Assembly: GCA_021799595.1 (NCBI GenBank)
Contig: JAJZAF010000006.1
Location: forward strand, 1-48,271
Direction of reading: 5' to 3'
DNA length: 48,271 nt
From: a bacterium
GTDB lineage: Bacteria > Patescibacteriota > Saccharimonadia > Saccharimonadales > UBA4665
In this document: in pieces, positions 10,109 to 21,111 of the stretch
Numbering within the stretch: the stretch's first letter is position 1
How the letters are laid out: every line of letters starts with the position of its first letter
The notes under the pieces: model-generated
The model's input: only the letters and a program-made list of their open reading frames with translations
Told to the model about the DNA's origin: nothing
Databases searched by the model: none
Program-made: the position numbers and the translations under genes

Positions 10109-10687
10109 TTAGACTTCAGGCTGCTGGGTAAAATAATTGATCTCGTTGACAATATCTAGTAGCGCTTGAGCCCGCATTTTGTCTTCGTCGATTGTCTGAG
10201 CGATTTGATAAGCTTTGGCGATAAGAGCGTCATTGTCGCTGGCTTGAATGATCATCATCAGGGTCTTGAAATGTTCACTTGGCGCTTGGTCAAGCTTGTC
10301 AATAAGGGGAAACAGTTCTTCAAGTGCCTTCTTTTTGATGTCAATAAGGTCTTCATTTGTAGCATCAACCAGTTTATTATCCTCTTTCGGTGGCTGCACT
10401 GCTGGATTAAAAGTCGAAGGATCCTTGCTGCTCAACGGTTTCGGAAAACCACCAGCCGGGGATATAACTTCATCCTTACTTCCGTTAGTATGATCATGAT
10501 CAAGAGCAGTACCAGGATGCTGCCAATGCGGAGCATCTTTTACTGACGGTGCATCGGGTGGATCACTAGCCGCAGCCACGCTGTTAATATCAGACTGTGG
10601 CTGAGTACCGTTTTGGTATTGGTAGTTGTTTGCTAGATCGTTTTGATCGCTTTGCTGCTGCTGATTATTATCTTGGTGCCCAAACAT
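10109..10687 (-). CDS. Hypothetical protein with a Gln/Asn-rich N-terminus (192 aa)
   Basis: No named family is recognised. Residues 1-100 are low complexity (NNQQQQSDQND, NYQYQNGTQPQ, then Pro/Asp/Ser-rich) and probably disordered. Residues about 105-185 form a helical, acidic domain (IKKKALEELFPLIDKLDQ, then EDKMRAQALLDIVNEINYF) that looks like the conserved part. No signal peptide or membrane helix is seen, so it is probably cytoplasmic. It converges on groEL with 4 bp between stops. Just before its ATG lies AGGGGGGGGATT on the coding strand (an 8-C run at 10691-10698), a purine-rich ribosome binding site made of a homopolymer. Confidence 0.75.
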   Translation of the reverse strand: MFGHQDNNQQQQSDQNDLANNYQYQNGTQPQSDINSVAAASDPPDAPSVKDAPHWQHPGTALDHDHTNGSKDEVISPAGGFPKPLSSKDPSTFNPAVQPPKEDNKLVDATNEDLIDIKKKALEELFPLIDKLDQAPSEHFKTLMMIIQASDNDALIAKAYQIAQTIDEDKMRAQALLDIVNEINYFTQQPEV

Positions 10688-10780: not shown

Positions 10781-11806
10781 ATGCTCGATGACATTAAACG
10801 TATTCATCAACTAGATGTACAGGATGCACTCGGGATAGCCCAGAAACAGTGGCAACAACTCACATATAATTATACTGTTCATTTACCAAAGTTACCTGAT
10901 ATACGCAATATCGTACTTGCCGGTATGGGTGGTTCGGCTTTGCCAGCAGTTTTCTTGCGCTCCTGGCCCCATGTCTTGCTTCCTTTTGAAATTGTCAGGG
11001 ACTACAGCTTACCGTTTTACGTTAATGAGCACACCCTCTTTATTTCTTCCAGCTATTCCGGCAATACCGAAGAAACACTCTCAGCCCTAGCTGATGCGGA
11101 AGAACGTCATGCCCAAATTATTGTGCTCAGTGCCGGTGGAAAACTTGTTGAGCGCGCGAAAGTTGTCAATTATCCTTTATATCTTATTCCTCAGGGAATT
11201 CAACCACGGATGTCGTCCTTCTATTTTCTGGCTGCTCTTATTCAAATACTAGAACCGCTTGGGGTTATTCCAGCTGGTAGCAGGCAGGAGCTCGAAGCTG
11301 CAGCAATGTGGCTAAAAGAACAGACTCTTCCTTGGGAAGCAGTCATACCAACAAAAAACAATCCTGCCAAAGAACTAGCCTTAGAACTCTTTGGTAAATC
11401 TATAGTGGTATATAGTGGCCCCAAAATGTTTCCGGCAGCCAATAAATGGAAAATTTGTATGAACGAGAATGCTAAAAATGTAGCCTGGGTAAACCAATAT
11501 CCTGAGTTTAACCATAATGAATTTGTTGGGTGGTCGAGCCATCCCACAGAAAAGCCGTATGCTGTTGTTGAAATTCGTTCAGATTTGGAAAACGATCAAG
11601 TGCAGAAGCGTTTTACTATAAGCGAACGTCTTTTGTCTGGTCGTCGACCAGCGCCGGAGGTGGTAGTGCCTGTGGGGGATAGTATTTTGAAGCAACTACT
11701 TTGGACATCCAACTTTGGAGATTTCGTCAGCCTTTACGTAGCACTACTAAACGGACTTAATCCTTCACCTGTAGAACTGGTAGAAAAGCTCAAACAGCTT
11801 CTCTAA
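10781..11806 (+). CDS. Bifunctional phosphoglucose/phosphomannose isomerase (SIS domains)
   Basis: 341-residue protein with two SIS sugar-isomerase domains. GMGGSALPA (residues 48-56) and SSSYSGNTEETLSAL (about 89-103) are phosphosugar-binding loops. The C-terminal half has NENAKNVAWVNQYPEFNHNEFVGW, typical of the archaeal/bacterial PGI/PMI family that interconverts fructose-6-P with glucose-6-P and mannose-6-P. It would supply glucose-6-P to the trehalose enzyme at 30889-33087. The ATG at 10781 has no close ribosome binding site. A GAGGGAG at 10758-10764 would instead suit the in-frame ATT at 10769, so the start is not certain. Confidence 0.88.
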   Translation: MLDDIKRIHQLDVQDALGIAQKQWQQLTYNYTVHLPKLPDIRNIVLAGMGGSALPAVFLRSWPHVLLPFEIVRDYSLPFYVNEHTLFISSSYSGNTEETLSALADAEERHAQIIVLSAGGKLVERAKVVNYPLYLIPQGIQPRMSSFYFLAALIQILEPLGVIPAGSRQELEAAAMWLKEQTLPWEAVIPTKNNPAKELALELFGKSIVVYSGPKMFPAANKWKICMNENAKNVAWVNQYPEFNHNEFVGWSSHPTEKPYAVVEIRSDLENDQVQKRFTISERLLSGRRPAPEVVVPVGDSILKQLLWTSNFGDFVSLYVALLNGLNPSPVELVEKLKQLL

Positions 11807-11828
11807 AAGATACTGTACATGCTTACGG

Positions 11829-11834
11829 TATAAT
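11829..11834 (+). promoter_or_regulatory. Consensus -10 box, predicted leaderless start
   Basis: TATAAT preceded by G, 6 nt before the ATG at 11841. No ribosome binding site and no clear -35. Confidence 0.55.
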
Positions 11835-11840
11835 TAGGTT

Positions 11841-12920
11841 ATGGTTATGTGGTGGCGTTCCGTACGCACGCAATTTCTCATAGCGCTGTTATTAGCAAGT
11901 GCGGTCAGTGTCAGTTTGTTCATGTATGGAGCGCTTGATAATCATAGCTTTCGAGAATTTAGCTATCTGCCCTTTAACCTCGTGCTAGCCTGGCTGCCGT
12001 TTATCTTCGCTATCCGTTTGACTTATGTCTTAAAAAATAAGTTATGGTCGAGTTGGGAAGGATTAGCCATGAGCACATTGTGGCTGATCTTTCTCCCGAA
12101 TAGTTTCTACATGATCAGTGATTTTATTCATCTGCAAGCTATCGGTAACAATACTATCATGTATGACACCTTGCTATTTACTGTTTTTATCTCAACTGGC
12201 GTAGCGCTCGGTTTTACTAGCTTATATCTCGTGCATAATCAGCTTTACCGTCGTCTGACCGCATATGAGGCGCACATCTGGGCAGCAGCGACATTGCTTA
12301 TCTCCAGTTGTGCTATTTACCTAGGACGAGACCTTCGGTGGAACAGCTGGGATATTATTACCAACCCTGGGGGGTTGCTCTTCGATATAGCCGATAGCAT
12401 TGAACATCCGTCTGCTCATCCACAGATGGTTATGACCATTATTGTGTTTTTTATCGTGCTATGCACAATGTATGGTTTGCTCTATTGTGGCGCCACCGTA
12501 TTGAGGAAAAATATAACTCCAACCAGGCAGGTTCGCTATCTAGCCTTATTTAATAGCAAGCGCCGCGGCGGAGACCCCCTGCACCACCCACTATTAAAAG
12601 AGCATCTTGTTTTTCTAGGCTACTGTCATATACCGGGACAGCTTAAAAAAGATAGTTATAAAGAGGAGCTTGTGGCCGGTACGGGTGATGTTGTCGGTGA
12701 GCTTTACATGCTCAAAGACCTTCACATATTGCCGCAACTGGATGACTATGCGGCCGGTAGCCCTGCTCAAAAAAAGGGCTTGAGACGTATACTGGTTGAA
12801 CTCAATCGGCCGAGAGTTCTTGCATGGGTATACTTTTCTGATGTGCCTCAAGAAAGTCAAATGAACTTAGCCCAACATAGAATTGACAATCAACCAACAC
12901 CAAGAGTAAAATTTTATTAA
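11841..12920 (+). CDS. DUF1361 membrane protein fused to a degenerate gamma-glutamylcyclotransferase-like domain
   Basis: Residues 1-225 are a polytopic membrane domain with the DUF1361 signature (LWLIFLPNSFYMISDFIHLQ at 80-99, LGRDLRWNSWDII at 161-173). Residues about 232-340 read as a GGCT-like fold: a start strand with F237-N-S-K (where active members have YGSL), RRGGDPLHHPLL, GELYMLKDLHILPQLDDYAA, RRILVEL, LAWVYF. The catalytic Glu that usually follows LDxY is Ala (D301-D-Y-A-A305), so cyclotransferase activity is unlikely. The domain assignment is by eye. The soluble domain follows the last membrane helix (about 199-218) and a basic linker, so it should be cytoplasmic. A binding role is possible. 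Confidence 0.78.
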   Translation: MVMWWRSVRTQFLIALLLASAVSVSLFMYGALDNHSFREFSYLPFNLVLAWLPFIFAIRLTYVLKNKLWSSWEGLAMSTLWLIFLPNSFYMISDFIHLQAIGNNTIMYDTLLFTVFISTGVALGFTSLYLVHNQLYRRLTAYEAHIWAAATLLISSCAIYLGRDLRWNSWDIITNPGGLLFDIADSIEHPSAHPQMVMTIIVFFIVLCTMYGLLYCGATVLRKNITPTRQVRYLALFNSKRRGGDPLHHPLLKEHLVFLGYCHIPGQLKKDSYKEELVAGTGDVVGELYMLKDLHILPQLDDYAAGSPAQKKGLRRILVELNRPRVLAWVYFSDVPQESQMNLAQHRIDNQPTPRVKFY

Positions 12921-13080
12921 AAATATATAAAATTGACAAAATATTTATATAAACAAAAAAGAAATAGCATAATATTTTGGAAAATACATACAAAATATAC
13001 AAAAAGTTATTAACTACAAGCTTGGAAAAGAATGCCTCACGGTTACTTCAAATTGGTACACTACCAGGAGGCGATATGTC
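12921..13080 (+). promoter_or_regulatory. AT-rich leader of the arg operon
   Basis: This 160-bp gap is much richer in A/T than its surroundings. It contains TTGACA at 12933-12938 without a -10 at 17 bp, several AT-rich near-repeats (AAAATACATACAAAATATAC), and an AGGAGG at 13066-13071, 9 nt before the argB ATG. A two-codon reading frame (ATG TCA TGA, 13076-13084) overlaps the argB start. I see no T-box, no attenuator and no confident ARG box. Confidence 0.4.
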
Positions 13081-13911
13081 ATGAACGAAACTACAAAGAA
13101 AATCGATACGCTTCTTCAGGCGTTAGAATATGTCAAAGAGTTTGATGGAAAAGTCATTGTCATTAAATATGGTGGTAGTGTCATAGAGAACAAACAACTT
13201 CAGGCCTCAGTATTTCAGGATATAAGCCTTTTAAGTAGATTGGGGCTACAGATTGTTATTGTTCACGGCGGCGGCCCGGCTATTAATCAAGCCCTGAAGG
13301 AGCGGGGTATTGTCAGCAAGGCAATTGATGGCCTTAGAGTAACGGATGAACAAATACTGAGGGTGGTCATTGAGTCTCTTAAGCGTATAAATAAAGATTG
13401 CGTCAAGGGCCTCATTAAGGCCGGTGTTCGAGCAGAAGACTACACAAGAAACATGTTGATTGCTAAACAGCGTGATCCAAGGCTTGGCTATGTTGGCGAC
13501 ATAGTGAAACTTAATACAGATGTACTTATAAAGGCACTTGCTTATGGGATTGTGCCAGTAGTGTCTTGTTGGGGTACAGACGGGGCAGGACAAATGTATA
13601 ACATTAATGCCGACACAGCCGCAATGCATGTTGCTGAAGCATTGAAGGCGGAAAAACTCACTATTCTCACCAATATCCATGGTGTGCTTGACGGAAAAGG
13701 AAGAAGACTGGCACATATAAAAGTTCGGGATATTCCTGCTTATATCGAGCATGATGTTATCTACGGTGGTATGATCCCAAAGGTTCAGGCTTGTGCAGAG
13801 GCAGTAACACACGGGGTGAAAAAAGCTCATCTTATCGATGGGACAATTCCAAGAGCTCTGCTTTTAGAGATTTTTACAGAAGAAGGAGTCGGCACAGAGG
13901 TTGTTTTATGA
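13081..13911 (+). CDS. argB: Acetylglutamate kinase
   Basis: Phosphorylates N-acetyl-L-glutamate, the second step of arginine synthesis. The amino-acid kinase motifs are KYGGSVI (29-35), HGGGPAINQ (62-70), DGLRVTDEQIL and YNINADTAAMHVAEAL, then GGMIPKVQACAEAV and EIFTEEGVGTEVV at the end. An N-terminal helix (about residues 5-20) precedes GKVIVIKYGG; in the family this helix marks hexameric, arginine-inhibited enzymes, so feedback control is likely. The C-terminal loop reads LIDGTIPRALL where IDGR is usual. It has a strong AGGAGG, and its TGA overlaps the argD ATG. LysZ (LysW-dependent) is an alternative, but no LysW gene is present. Confidence 0.9.
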   Translation: MNETTKKIDTLLQALEYVKEFDGKVIVIKYGGSVIENKQLQASVFQDISLLSRLGLQIVIVHGGGPAINQALKERGIVSKAIDGLRVTDEQILRVVIESLKRINKDCVKGLIKAGVRAEDYTRNMLIAKQRDPRLGYVGDIVKLNTDVLIKALAYGIVPVVSCWGTDGAGQMYNINADTAAMHVAEALKAEKLTILTNIHGVLDGKGRRLAHIKVRDIPAYIEHDVIYGGMIPKVQACAEAVTHGVKKAHLIDGTIPRALLLEIFTEEGVGTEVVL

Positions 13912-15068
13912 ATGTTAATCAGCTTCAAGAGATCGACAACCAGCATATTATGTCAACCTATTCACGACGACCGTTACTTATCGAGAAAGGAAAGGGGTGC
14001 TATGTCTTTGACGAAACCGGTAAAAAATATTTGGATTTCGTAAGTGGCATTGCTACCTGCAGTGTCGGTCACGCTAATCCTACCGTAGTACGGGCTATTA
14101 CTGAACAGGCTAAAAAATTAATTAGCGTCTCAAATCTTTATTATACCGAGCCGCCTATTCAGTTAGCGTTGACGCTCTCTCGCCTTAGTGGTTTAAAGAA
14201 GGTATTTTTTTGCCACAGTGGCACCGAAGCCAACGAAGCAGCAATTAAGTTAGCGAAGAAAGTAACGGGCAAGAGCGAATTTATTGCATTTACTGAAGCC
14301 TTTCATGGCCGAACAACCGGTAGCCTGGCACTTACCCATAATGAAAAATATCGGCAACCGTTTCTGCCCCTTGCTCCTACAGTACGGTTCGCTCAATACA
14401 ATAATGCAGAGAGTCTTGAGTCGCTTGTTTCAGACAATATAGCGGCAGTGATAGTCGAGCCAATTGAAGGAGAAGCCGGCGTTATTGTTCCTGATGAAGG
14501 TTTTCTGACAGCTGTCAGACAGATTTGTGATCGGCATAAGATTTTAATGATTGTCGATGAAGTGCAAACCGGACTTGGTCGTACAGGGAACTTTTTTGCC
14601 TATCAGGCAGAAGGCATTCGCCCGGATATTGTTACTATTGCTAAGGGGCTTGCAAATGGACTACCTATTGGTGCCTGTTTGTCTGACTATAGCCTGGATA
14701 TTGGTGAGCATGGTTCGACGCTTGGAGGAAATAGCTTATCAACTGCCGCTGCGTTGGCAACTATTGGCTACATTGAGAAGCATAGACTTATAGATAATGC
14801 AGCTAAGACGGGCACATACTTGATGAAACGCCTGGCCTGTCTTTCAAAACAAGGTTCAATCTTAGAAGCAGTGCGAGGTAAGGGACTAATGATCGGTGTT
14901 ACATTAAAGCGTCCGATAGCTAATCAGATTGTAGCCGGCTGCCAAAACGCCGGTTTGCTCTGCAATGCGCCGACACCGAATGTTATTCGGCTATTGCCAC
15001 CACTTATAGTGAAGCGACAGCAAGCCGATGAGTGCGTAGAAATTTTAACAAAAGAGCTGCAGCCATGA
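13908..15068 (+). CDS. argD: Acetylornithine aminotransferase
   Basis: Class III PLP aminotransferase converting N-acetylglutamate semialdehyde to N-acetylornithine. Visible: GKKYLDFVSGIATCSVGH, the cofactor-phosphate loop GTEANEAAIKLAKK, EAFHGRTTGSLALT, DEVQTGLGRTGNFFAYQ, and TIAKGLANGLPIGA with the Schiff-base lysine. The frame continues 39 codons upstream inside argB. The ATG at 13908, in an ATGA overlap with the argB stop, gives MNVNQLQEIDNQHIMSTYSR, the normal N-terminus, and a 386-aa product. LysJ is a close relative, but the neighbouring argS favours arginine. Confidence 0.9.
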   Translation: MNVNQLQEIDNQHIMSTYSRRPLLIEKGKGCYVFDETGKKYLDFVSGIATCSVGHANPTVVRAITEQAKKLISVSNLYYTEPPIQLALTLSRLSGLKKVFFCHSGTEANEAAIKLAKKVTGKSEFIAFTEAFHGRTTGSLALTHNEKYRQPFLPLAPTVRFAQYNNAESLESLVSDNIAAVIVEPIEGEAGVIVPDEGFLTAVRQICDRHKILMIVDEVQTGLGRTGNFFAYQAEGIRPDIVTIAKGLANGLPIGACLSDYSLDIGEHGSTLGGNSLSTAAALATIGYIEKHRLIDNAAKTGTYLMKRLACLSKQGSILEAVRGKGLMIGVTLKRPIANQIVAGCQNAGLLCNAPTPNVIRLLPPLIVKRQQADECVEILTKELQP

Positions 15069-16060
15069 AGACAGTGGGTATAATCGGCGCAAGCGGATTT
15101 ACCGGACACCTGCTCAGTCAGCTCATTGACCAGCATCCTAGTGTGGAGTTAAAGGTTCGCAATAGCAGCCATTACAAGGGACAGAAGGTTAAGATATTGT
15201 ACCCAAGCTATAAAGGCGACGCGGCGTATAGCGGCTATTCCCTTCGGGAAATAGCTACTCTCGGTCTGGATCTTATTTTTCTAGCGCTTCCTCACAAGCA
15301 ATCAATGGACATTATTGCCAAACTGGAACCAACAGGTGTGAAATTAATTGATCTCAGTGCGGACCACAGATTTCAAGACCCGACAATGTATAAACGTATA
15401 TACGGGAAGACACTACTGGCTACAAAACGGCAATGGATCTATGGGTTGCCGGAACTGTTTCGAGAAGATATCAAGAAAGCAAACGCAGTGGCGCTCCCCG
15501 GATGCTATGCGACTGCGGCTATTCTTGCCGTCTATCCTTTACAAAAAGATATCATTCACTGCATCTTCGACTGTGTCAGTGGTTGGTCAGGAGCTGGCCG
15601 TGACAGCCAATATGCGAAGGATAGAAATTTGTTGAAGGATAATCTCATTGCTTACAGCCTTGTCAAACATCGCCACAAGTACGAAATTGAACAATTTCTT
15701 GGCAATAATATAAGTTTCACGCCACACGTATTTAGTGCCATCGAGGGTCTTATGTGCACGGCACATATCCTTATGCCAAATATGTCGGCCGAAGAGATAA
15801 AAACCCGATACAAAAAACAGTACCAAGACGAGCCGTTTACTATTATTACCGAAAAAGTACCGGATATACAAAGTACAGTCGGTACAAATATCTGTCAAAT
15901 TGGCGGATTTGAGACAGACGAAGCCGGTCAATTGGTAGTGGTGGCCACCTTAGACAATCTGATAAAAGGAGCTGCCGGCCAAGCAGTGCAGAATATGAAC
16001 TTGATGTTTGGTTTTGACGAAACAACTGGTCTGCAGTCATCTGTTACACTGAAAGTATGA
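15065..16060 (+). CDS. argC: N-acetyl-gamma-glutamyl-phosphate reductase
   Basis: NADPH-dependent reductase for the third arginine step. The Rossmann motif GIIGASGFTG (residues 4-13), LSADHRFQD, the catalytic cysteine in LPGCYATAAILAVYPL, GWSGAGRDSQYAK and the late TPHVFSAIEGLMCTAHI are as expected. Its ATG lies in an ATGA overlap with argD, which sets the start at 15065 and the length at 331 aa. Gene order B-D-C puts the enzymes out of reaction order but in one translationally coupled unit. LysY is the alternative assignment. Confidence 0.9.
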   Translation: MKTVGIIGASGFTGHLLSQLIDQHPSVELKVRNSSHYKGQKVKILYPSYKGDAAYSGYSLREIATLGLDLIFLALPHKQSMDIIAKLEPTGVKLIDLSADHRFQDPTMYKRIYGKTLLATKRQWIYGLPELFREDIKKANAVALPGCYATAAILAVYPLQKDIIHCIFDCVSGWSGAGRDSQYAKDRNLLKDNLIAYSLVKHRHKYEIEQFLGNNISFTPHVFSAIEGLMCTAHILMPNMSAEEIKTRYKKQYQDEPFTIITEKVPDIQSTVGTNICQIGGFETDEAGQLVVVATLDNLIKGAAGQAVQNMNLMFGFDETTGLQSSVTLKV

Positions 16061-17739
16061 AACAAGAGCTGGAAAACAGCATAACAAAAACGTGCCGAGA
16101 GTTGTTCCATCAACCAGTGGAGGTTAATCTTACTAGGCCAGACAACCAGTTCGGTGATTACTCAACTAACATTGCCCTACTGCTTGCTAGCCGCATCAAT
16201 CAGACTTCTCTCTCGATTGCAGACCAACTTGTCAAGGTGTTAAAGGAATCTCTCGCTGTGACGGTTAGCCAGATAGAAATAGCCGGTCCAGGCTTTATTA
16301 ATCTCCGACTTCGCAACGAAGCCTTACTAATGGGTCTCAATCAAGAACCGGCCAAGACTCGAAAGAGGAAAGTAGTAGTTGCTGAGTACTCAGACCCCAA
16401 CCCGTTCAAGGTTCTGCATGTCGGCCACTTGTACACCACAATTGTTGGGGATAGCATTGCGCGGTTGTTGGAAGTCACTGGTGCCACAGTGCATCGATTA
16501 AATTACGGGGGAGATGTTGGCTTGCATGTCGGCAAGACCATGTGGGCCGTAATAGATAATATCGGTGGTGAAAAACCAGATGCGTTGAAAAATATTCCAG
16601 AGGCTGATCGGCTCACCTGGCTCAGTGAACGTTACGTAGCTGGCAACTTGGCATATGAAGAAAATGAGCAGGCGAAACAGGCAATTACTCTTTGTAATAA
16701 ACGGGTGTATGAGCTATACCAGAATGATGACCGCAACTCGCCATTTGCTCAGATATACTGGATGTGCCGAGACTGGAGCTATAGGGGTTTTGAAAAGCTA
16801 TATGAAGAACTGCAAATTGTGCCATTTGAGCGATTTATTTCTGAAAGCGAAGTCGTAGAACCCGGACTTGAGTTAGTTGAAAGGGGCCTTGCGGAAGGAA
16901 CGCTCGAGCGCTCTGAAGGTGCCGTTATTTTCAAAGCAGCAGATGGCGAGGATATCCATACACGAGTTTTCTTAAATTCCGAAGGGCTACCAACTTATGA
17001 AGCTAAGGAGCTTGGTTTGACGAGTCTAAAATGGCAAGAGTATAACTTTGATGAAAGCATCATGATTACTGCCAATGACATTGTTGCTTATATGAAGGTA
17101 GTGCTGACAGTAGCGGCGGTTTTCTACCCGGAGAGTGTTAATCGCACCAAACATTTAACCCACGGTATGGTGAGATTGCCGGGTGGACAGAAAATGAGTA
17201 GTCGCCGCGGCAATGTTCTGGAGGCCCGAGATATCTTAACGGCAGTTGATCAGGCCAACCGAACAGTTACAGGTAGTTATAATCGAGAGAGCACCCTAGC
17301 TGCTGTCAAGTATGGGTTTTTAAAGCACCGCCTCGGTGGAGATATTATCTATGACCCAAAGGAGTTAGCGGCAATTGAAGGCAATAGCGGGCCGTATATC
17401 CAATACGCATATGCCCGAGCTTGCTCTATTATCCGTAAGGCTACTCAATCAACAGCGTCTTTAAAAGTGACTGCTGATCTGCAATTCCAGGAACGCTCAC
17501 TATTATGGAAGATAACTGAATATAAAGAAGTCATCGATCTGGCGGCGTCGGAACTAGCTCCGCACCATATTTGTAACTATCTTTACGAATTGGCGCAAGT
17601 TTTTAATAGATTTTATGAGCAAAACCGGGTAGTCGGCGATGAACGAGAAGCTACCCGTTTACTGCTGGTAAAACACTATGCAGAAACCTTGCAGAAAGGG
17701 CTTGGCGTACTTGGCATAACAGCGCCGGAGCGTTTGTGA
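16057..17739 (+). CDS. argS: Arginyl-tRNA synthetase
   Basis: 560-residue class I synthetase charging tRNA-Arg. It has the N-terminal Add1-like domain (QFGDYSTNIALLLASRINQ), the HIGH motif as SDPNPFKVLHVGHLYTT, the KMSKS loop as GGQKMSSRRGNVL, and the alpha-helical anticodon domain with YIQYAYARACSI and a DALR-type C-terminus. Its ATG overlaps the argC TGA, so it is the last gene of a four-gene coupled unit. Placing arginine synthesis and arginine use on one transcript is the main reason for calling the upstream genes arginine rather than lysine enzymes. Confidence 0.96.
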   Translation: MKQELENSITKTCRELFHQPVEVNLTRPDNQFGDYSTNIALLLASRINQTSLSIADQLVKVLKESLAVTVSQIEIAGPGFINLRLRNEALLMGLNQEPAKTRKRKVVVAEYSDPNPFKVLHVGHLYTTIVGDSIARLLEVTGATVHRLNYGGDVGLHVGKTMWAVIDNIGGEKPDALKNIPEADRLTWLSERYVAGNLAYEENEQAKQAITLCNKRVYELYQNDDRNSPFAQIYWMCRDWSYRGFEKLYEELQIVPFERFISESEVVEPGLELVERGLAEGTLERSEGAVIFKAADGEDIHTRVFLNSEGLPTYEAKELGLTSLKWQEYNFDESIMITANDIVAYMKVVLTVAAVFYPESVNRTKHLTHGMVRLPGGQKMSSRRGNVLEARDILTAVDQANRTVTGSYNRESTLAAVKYGFLKHRLGGDIIYDPKELAAIEGNSGPYIQYAYARACSIIRKATQSTASLKVTADLQFQERSLLWKITEYKEVIDLAASELAPHHICNYLYELAQVFNRFYEQNRVVGDEREATRLLLVKHYAETLQKGLGVLGITAPERL

Positions 17740-20064: not shown

Positions 20065-21111
20065 TTAATTAACTGCGGAATTGGCTTCATTAAGTTGCTT
20101 AAGCAATAAACCAGTTTGTTTATATTCATTAAGCAGCTCAATATGCCCGTTTTTACCAGTTGTCTGATTATATGCAAAACGAATATCTGCTCGGTAGGTG
20201 TTCAGTTCGGTGGTCATAATAGACTGGAAAGTGCTGGGGAAAGTATTAGATGTAACAGCGGCCAACAGCTGACTATCTGTTGTTGTTAACTCTTTCAGAC
20301 TAATGTCTTTCGGATTAATTTTTTGCTTGTTTAGCAGCAAGTAATTAATGAGTTGGTTTTGTGAACTTGTCACAGTAGCCTGAGTAGTAGCAATAAAGTT
20401 ATTATAAGTAGGCGGCAAGGCAGCTTGCTCACTGGGGTTTTGCACCACTTCGCTTGTCAGATGAATTAATTCCTGCTGATCCTGTAAGACCGATAAAAAC
20501 GGTGAAAGATCGAAACTCGTCGATAAGAAGCTATGTAAGATAACAATAAGGAGTAAGCAGACAACAAACCCACCGCCGAGGATACCGAGAAGCTTAGGCA
20601 ACGAAGTTTCATGAAAGACATCTAAAAAGGAAGTTTTCGGAGGCGAGGGGGGGTTAGTGATAAAGTCGTATGGTTCTGCTGGACCACTTGGTTGAACTTC
20701 ATCCTGGGGCTTGCTTGTTTGAGGCGATATTGTCGGCGACACTGTCATTCCCGGCAACTCGTGGCGTTCACTGAGGTGTGTCAGGTCATGAGAAATTTGA
20801 TGCTCGGACAGAGGGTGAGGAGTGGATTGAGCGACCAGTGATGCCTCCGGTGTAAGGTACTGGGTGGCGACCCGTTGTTGCATGTAAGGGCCAATATACT
20901 GTTTCAAATTTGCTGGCAGTGTTTGTTGCATATGCTGTGCCATCTGCTGTTGAATATGTGGCGGCACATAGCCACCGGATCTCTGATAATATTGTAAATT
21001 CGCTGGCAGCGTTTGCTGCATACGTTTGGCCATTTCTGCTTGAACCCGAGGTGGAATAATAGCGGCTCTGTCTTGTGAAATGTGGGAGGACCTAGGAGGC
21101 ATAGTCTTCAT
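20065..21111 (-). CDS. Single-pass membrane protein with MQQTLPANL repeats, function unknown
   Basis: 348 residues, family not recognised. The N-terminal 70 residues contain two and a half copies of a repeat: PPRVQAEMAKRMQQTLPANL, PPHIQQQMAQHMQQTLPANL and a decayed YMQQ unit. A Pro/Ser/Thr-rich linker follows, then one transmembrane helix (LLGILGGGFVVCLLLIVIL, about residues 185-205). The last 140 residues are a helical, probably extracytoplasmic domain (SEVVQNPSEQAALPPTYNNF onward). No signal peptide precedes it, so the repeat region should be cytoplasmic. The start may be 3 codons later, at 21102. It converges on the MmcQ gene with no space for a terminator. Confidence 0.72.
   Translation of the reverse strand: MKTMPPRSSHISQDRAAIIPPRVQAEMAKRMQQTLPANLQYYQRSGGYVPPHIQQQMAQHMQQTLPANLKQYIGPYMQQRVATQYLTPEASLVAQSTPHPLSEHQISHDLTHLSERHELPGMTVSPTISPQTSKPQDEVQPSGPAEPYDFITNPPSPPKTSFLDVFHETSLPKLLGILGGGFVVCLLLIVILHSFLSTSFDLSPFLSVLQDQQELIHLTSEVVQNPSEQAALPPTYNNFIATTQATVTSSQNQLINYLLLNKQKINPKDISLKELTTTDSQLLAAVTSNTFPSTFQSIMTTELNTYRADIRFAYNQTTGKNGHIELLNEYKQTGLLLKQLNEANSAVN

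Follow-up and report, generated by a model that had tools for sequence, protein, structure and literature searches.

A DUF1361 membrane protein with a degenerate GGACT-family tail beside arginine-biosynthesis genes in Saccharimonadales

We analysed a 48,271-nucleotide stretch of DNA, the window, from a bacterium of the Patescibacteriota (Saccharimonadia; Saccharimonadales; UBA4665; assembly GCA_021799595.1, contig JAJZAF010000006.1). The gene at 11841-12920 joins a DUF1361 membrane protein to a C-terminal domain that is, judging by its orthologues, descended from the GGACT/AIG2 (gamma-glutamylcyclotransferase) family and has lost its catalytic motifs. Both parts of this protein are already known and their combination is small and rare; the literature we searched held no description of it. 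Throughout, G000 denotes the window's genome, G001 a second genome of the same genus and G020 a genome of another genus in the same family. The features of the fusion gene are as follows.

11841..12920, plus strand: fusion gene, an open reading frame of 359 amino acids, with orthologous fusions in G001 (L048) and G020 (L049)
11841-12506, plus strand: membrane part, residues ~1-222, modelled with six long helices and one that is shorter
11973..12467, plus strand: DUF1361 (PF07099) region, profile match 4.3e-36
12507..12533, plus strand: positively charged linker, residues 223-231, after the last membrane helix (charge count of residues 217-231)
12534..12842, plus strand: degenerate GGACT/AIG2-descended domain, residues 232-334 (homology through the G020 and G001 domains; hhalign score above 200 shuffles)
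12549..12560, plus strand: F-N-S-K in place of YG(S/T)L, residues 237-240 (alignment; codons of 237-239)
12750..12752, plus strand: Ala304 (GCG) where the acid/base Glu would stand (codon comparison with G001 and G020)
12843..12917, plus strand: C-terminal end, residues 335-359, unconserved (G001 shares 4 of 16 aligned positions; the G020 protein stops right after the GGACT domain)

An initial annotation, made from the sequence alone, had described this gene as a seven-helix-like DUF1361 protein followed by a GGCT-like domain and had proposed profile searches of the two halves. Residues 45-209 match PF07099 with 124.8 bits against a curated cut-off of 25, and this part has the residues that are invariant among 42 DUF1361 relatives of other phyla, none of which shows the C-terminal domain. 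A full-length model built on these 42 relatives contains six long helices and one shorter one, with a pLDDT, taken by blocks, above 80 over residues ~11-220, and so upholds a multi-helix protein without clearly giving seven spans. By counts of positive charge in the loops, those at 64-72 and 131-141 face the cytosol, as do the N-terminus and the segment leading into the extra domain; the GGACT tail is thus probably cytosolic as well. A Foldseek comparison of the full-length model with the PDB returned 272 matches up to E 10 and none at E 0.001 or better. The best alignment from VIA-align, to TTYH2 over 116 residues, had a Z of 8.6, a value common among helical bundles, and we therefore assign the DUF1361 part to no fold. 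A DUF1361 gene appears among erythritol-changed transcripts in PMC10483758.

The other half of the proposed search came out differently. The window tail alone (residues 232 to ~334) gave no Pfam match, including at the curated cut-off of PF06094 (GGACT), and no NCBIfam match, and against PDB sequences its best hit was an unrelated acetyltransferase at E 0.25. The tails of the two orthologous fusions do match PF06094, with 57.4 bits in G020 and 30.3 bits in G001 (cut-off 22.8); the match is not listed for the whole G001 protein, and a genome-level search had no match in either G000 or G001. The window tail aligns end to end with both orthologous tails and is 55% identical to that of G020, the domains being 55-60% identical in a full-length alignment. 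The only credible PDB match of the G020 domain is E. coli YtfP (1xhs, E 0.0034), a member of the GGACT/AIG2 family. The suggestion of DUF1361 followed by a GGCT-like domain is thus borne out. With GGCT and ChaC of glutathione metabolism, placed in one fold family in PMC7022552, the likeness would be one of general fold only.

We also aligned the tails with hhalign to a profile of free-standing GGACT proteins of the phylum. Of 22 loci, 16 were kept and six had no frame passing a motif filter that demands Glu after LDx(F/Y/L) or similar, which biases the profile to intact members. The window tail alone scored 24.8, above the best of 200 shuffles (21.1). The G020 tail reached 41.8 and the G001 tail alone 21.8, the latter only slightly higher than the shuffles. 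In the alignment of the window plus G001 tails with this profile, the LDDYAA/LDxFEG and AWVYF motifs fall in register. The HHalign probability for the window tail alone is just 18%, and the domain assignment accordingly rests on the orthologues. This low value and the missing Pfam match are what could be said for a resemblance by chance or for some unrelated domain; three domains 55-60% identical over their full length, two with significant PF06094 matches, already contradict this idea, which we regard as very improbable.

The YGxL loop of these enzymes holds the gamma-glutamyl group. The residues named in PMC7022552 agree with this: the YGSL motif is given there for GGCT-fold enzymes together with an acid/base Glu, which is Glu98 in GGCT and Glu82 in human GGACT. 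The G020 domain has YGTL and LDEYE, the whole motif set, and retains the parts for catalysis; it is probably a membrane-tethered cyclotransferase. G001 has YGAK and LDEYV. The window has F237-N238-S239-K240 and L300-D301-D302-Y303-A304-A305, in exact agreement with the motifs read in the initial annotation, and differs from the GGACT/AIG2 family in lacking both the catalytic Glu and YG(S/T)L and in being joined to a membrane protein. At the Glu position the codons read GAG (Glu) in G020, GTG (Val) in G001 and GCG (Ala) in G000. Loss of the Glu therefore holds for the window's genus and not for the fusion as such, since G020 retains it, and we dropped the idea that it is typical of the fusion. 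Going by these motifs, the fusion arose with an active-looking enzyme, the Glu and YGxL being lost secondarily in the window's genus. The change from Leu to Lys in YGxL is common to G000 and G001, so decay probably started before these two species split.

From the loss of both motifs we infer that the window domain no longer cyclises gamma-glutamyl compounds, and we take it as a pseudoenzyme kept for binding or stability. A domain that is still catalytic, with another acidic residue such as D301 or D302 replacing the Glu, or with a different reaction, would fit the invariance of D301 and Y303 across the three fusions and the constraint on the domain described below; the YGxL loop is gone too, however (FNSK, with the Lys found also in G001), and we consider continued catalysis improbable.

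Constraint on the tail was assessed from codon positions, counting changes at sites where the other two genes agree, since dS was saturated or nearly so and no dN/dS is quoted. In the tail, changes on the G000 branch fell at 11 of 76 second positions versus 19 of 36 third positions (p 5.6e-5), and on the G001 branch at 8 of 73 versus 23 of 40 (p 3e-7). The DUF1361 part on the G000 branch changed at 12 of 186 second and 39 of 86 third positions. Measured in this way, the tail is under purifying selection, though less strongly so than the membrane part. A late loss of the Glu on the G000 branch would mean that some of the measured constraint is older than that loss.

These counts bear on whether the tail is a neutral passenger, an accident of insertion without function in the window's genus, kept only since it has not been cut off or since the membrane part would fold badly without it. 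Both motifs are lost, the GGACT part diverges faster than the DUF1361 part (59% versus 70% identity between G000 and G001, which fits partial relaxation), the linker (G000 and G001 agree at 3 of its 9 positions) and the last 25 residues are unconserved, and DUF1361 does without a tail in 27 of 30 family loci. The strong conservation of second relative to third codon positions on both branches of the genus is against it, as are the lack of any frameshift or stop in the fusion gene of the three genomes and the retention, with small changes, of the core stretches HPLLKEHL, GYCHIPG, GDVVGELYMLKDL, VLPQLD and VLAWVYF. On balance we think it unlikely, though a serious alternative, that the tail is a passenger, and return to a retained pseudoenzyme domain as the preferred reading.

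The fusion is confined to very few genomes. A search with the whole protein in 98 genomes found a match in 65, spanning the tail in three (G000, G001 and G020), and the tail profile likewise found three of 93 family genomes, in two genera of 41. The window tail itself was found in 2 of 294 class genomes, a sample including G000 and G020. Of 392 class genomes, 84 have DUF1361, and the only frames longer than 312 codons are the three fusion genes (3 of 84); the 312-codon frame itself holds an ordinary protein no longer than 249 residues. The tail is absent, as judged by the last 60 residues, from 46 DUF1361 loci of other phyla, comprising 42 complete frames of 180-320 residues, a 103-residue frame (L046) and three running off an end. 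Among 57 pattern matches in viral contigs none was a relative, and plasmids and phages searched with the G020 domain gave no match. An assembly error as the origin of the fusion was dropped, the fusion being present in three genomes with 64% identity over the whole alignment.

In a DUF1361 tree of 30 family members and four outgroup sequences, whose deeper branches are poorly supported, the three fusions form one group with 100% bootstrap, and an unrooted ten-gene tree of ten genomes is consistent with a single fusion group. Because the three fusion genomes form one clade, we take the fusion to be one event.

The neighbouring features in the window are as follows.

10781..11806, plus strand: phosphoglucose-isomerase-like (PGI-like) SIS protein, the upstream neighbour (PF10432, 1.2e-39)
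11829..11834, plus strand: TATAAT, its last base 6 bases 5' of the start codon
12921..13080, no strand: A+T-rich spacer with 26% G+C; argJ occupies this place in G001 (locus comparison)
13081..13911, plus strand: argB, acetylglutamate kinase (TIGR00761, 2.9e-61, over cut-off)
13905..15068, plus strand: argD, acetylornithine transaminase (TIGR00707, 1.6e-142; start codon chosen by us)
15062..16060, plus strand: argC, N-acetyl-gamma-glutamyl-phosphate reductase (TIGR01850, 1.1e-104; start codon chosen by us)
16057..17739, plus strand: argS, arginyl-tRNA synthetase (PF00750/PF05746/PF03485)

A TATAAT likewise stands 9-12 bases 5' of the start in G001 and G020, and a leaderless transcript of the fusion gene is possible. 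A promoter scan that requires a -35 match did not report the hexamer at 11829..11834, a promoter and terminator scan of 11700-13150 found nothing beyond chance, and an Rfam search of the window had no match. Two further frames of the window, at 20065-21111 and 10109-10687, both on the minus strand, have no Pfam match at 1e-4 and are present in syntenic loci of relatives.

The surroundings of DUF1361 are conserved within the family. Among the 30 family loci, a PGI-like SIS gene lies 5' of DUF1361 in 20, and in 25 of the 27 non-fusion loci argS follows on the same strand within 1.5 kb. Most of the family genomes read have argS directly after DUF1361, often at a distance of 35-140 bases (L051-L076, for example L054 and L056). 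Neither argS nor argB, C or D was found within the available flanking stretch at any of the 46 loci of other phyla. In all three fusion genomes, arginine-biosynthesis genes separate the fusion from the downstream argS, a position at the edge of an arginine block that goes beyond the initial annotation. These are argB, argD and argC in the window, argJ, argB, argD and argC in G001, and carB and carA (on the opposite strand), argH, argF, argJ, argB, argD and argC in G020; argF of G020 was tested as a partial frame, and argB, argD and argC of G001 and G020 were named by their match to those of the window.

In the family, argC exceeds its cut-off in 4 of 93 genomes, namely G013 and the three with the fusion, and argJ in 3 of 93 (G001, G020 and G013). 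For argG the number is 6 of 93; all three fusion genomes are among them and carry it on other contigs. There is no argJ match in the window's genome, where the ArgJ steps may have been lost or be done otherwise. PMC8386444 describes partial arginine biosynthesis in oral Saccharibacteria of two clades. In G013 (L131:90-6557), which has no DUF1361 or GGACT match, the block lies just 5' of argS in a different order (argC, argJ, argD, argB, argS; genes besides argC and argJ named by eye), and arginine genes thus seem to have reached the site by argS more than once.

Several other arrangements were seen in passing. On contig 31 of the window's genome (L132:11258-18996), argG adjoins a dimethylargininase-like gene (NCBIfam match under cut-off), followed on the other strand by pyrB-, carB- and carA-like genes, named by eye. 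In G031 and G016 (L088:433-1269, L089:8977-9861), which have no argJ or argC match, an ArgB-like kinase of ~29% identity lies between DUF1361 and argS. In G041 (L094:2260-6462), a 1401-codon open frame, partly repetitive by eye, lies between the PGI-like gene and DUF1361.

Since the arginine block is present at all three fusion loci and argS directly follows DUF1361 in most relatives, the fusion probably arose when the block was inserted. We propose that, in the ancestor shared by the two genera, the arginine block came to lie between DUF1361 and argS; its left end would have been, or carried, a GGACT gene that fused in frame, so that a single event attached a cytosolic GGACT domain to the C-terminal end of a DUF1361 protein with six or seven helices. 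The acid/base Glu and the YGxL loop for the substrate would later have disappeared in the window's genus and cyclisation ended, with the tail persisting as a folded pseudoenzyme domain that may serve its DUF1361 part as a scaffold, by stabilising it, or by binding a ligand or protein partner. Insertion as the cause of the fusion is our inference from gene order. We consider this account as a whole, a single fusion at the insertion followed by a pseudoenzyme kept for the DUF1361 protein, somewhat favoured.

Several observations weigh against it besides the faster divergence of the tail. No donor GGACT was found among the genomes with PF06094 (20 of 379 in the phylum, where all the frames have 146-196 codons and leave no room for the fusion, and 4 of 93 in the family); the best BLAST hit of the G020 domain among 23 loci had E 2.05e-4, many of the rows were unrelated frames, and we claim no donor. 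No free-standing GGACT adjoining arginine genes was seen, the neighbourhoods having been read by eye for G050 and G017 only. An AF2 prediction of the tail alone from a single sequence gave a pLDDT of 34 and no usable structure, and the full-length model, with no usable alignment there, shows the tail as low-confidence helices that speak neither for nor against a GGCT fold. We know of no ligand, partner, activity or function for DUF1361.

A more specific version would make the tail a membrane-anchored pseudo-gamma-glutamylcyclotransferase, captured with the arginine pathway, whose ligand is a gamma-glutamyl compound or whose partner is an enzyme of that pathway. N-acetyl-gamma-glutamyl phosphate is the product of ArgB and the substrate of ArgC, and a link of the tail to this compound is speculation. 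We give this version little credence; if true, the supply of arginine would be coupled to a membrane protein of the DUF1361 family, the gene of which otherwise pairs with argS.

The fusion would offer a traceable case in which an enzyme domain was joined to a membrane protein and then lost its active site while selection continued. An active-looking state is preserved in a related genus, so that the step from enzyme to pseudoenzyme can be tested directly on the G020 and window domains side by side, and the conserved DUF1361-argS gene pair is a lead on the function of DUF1361.
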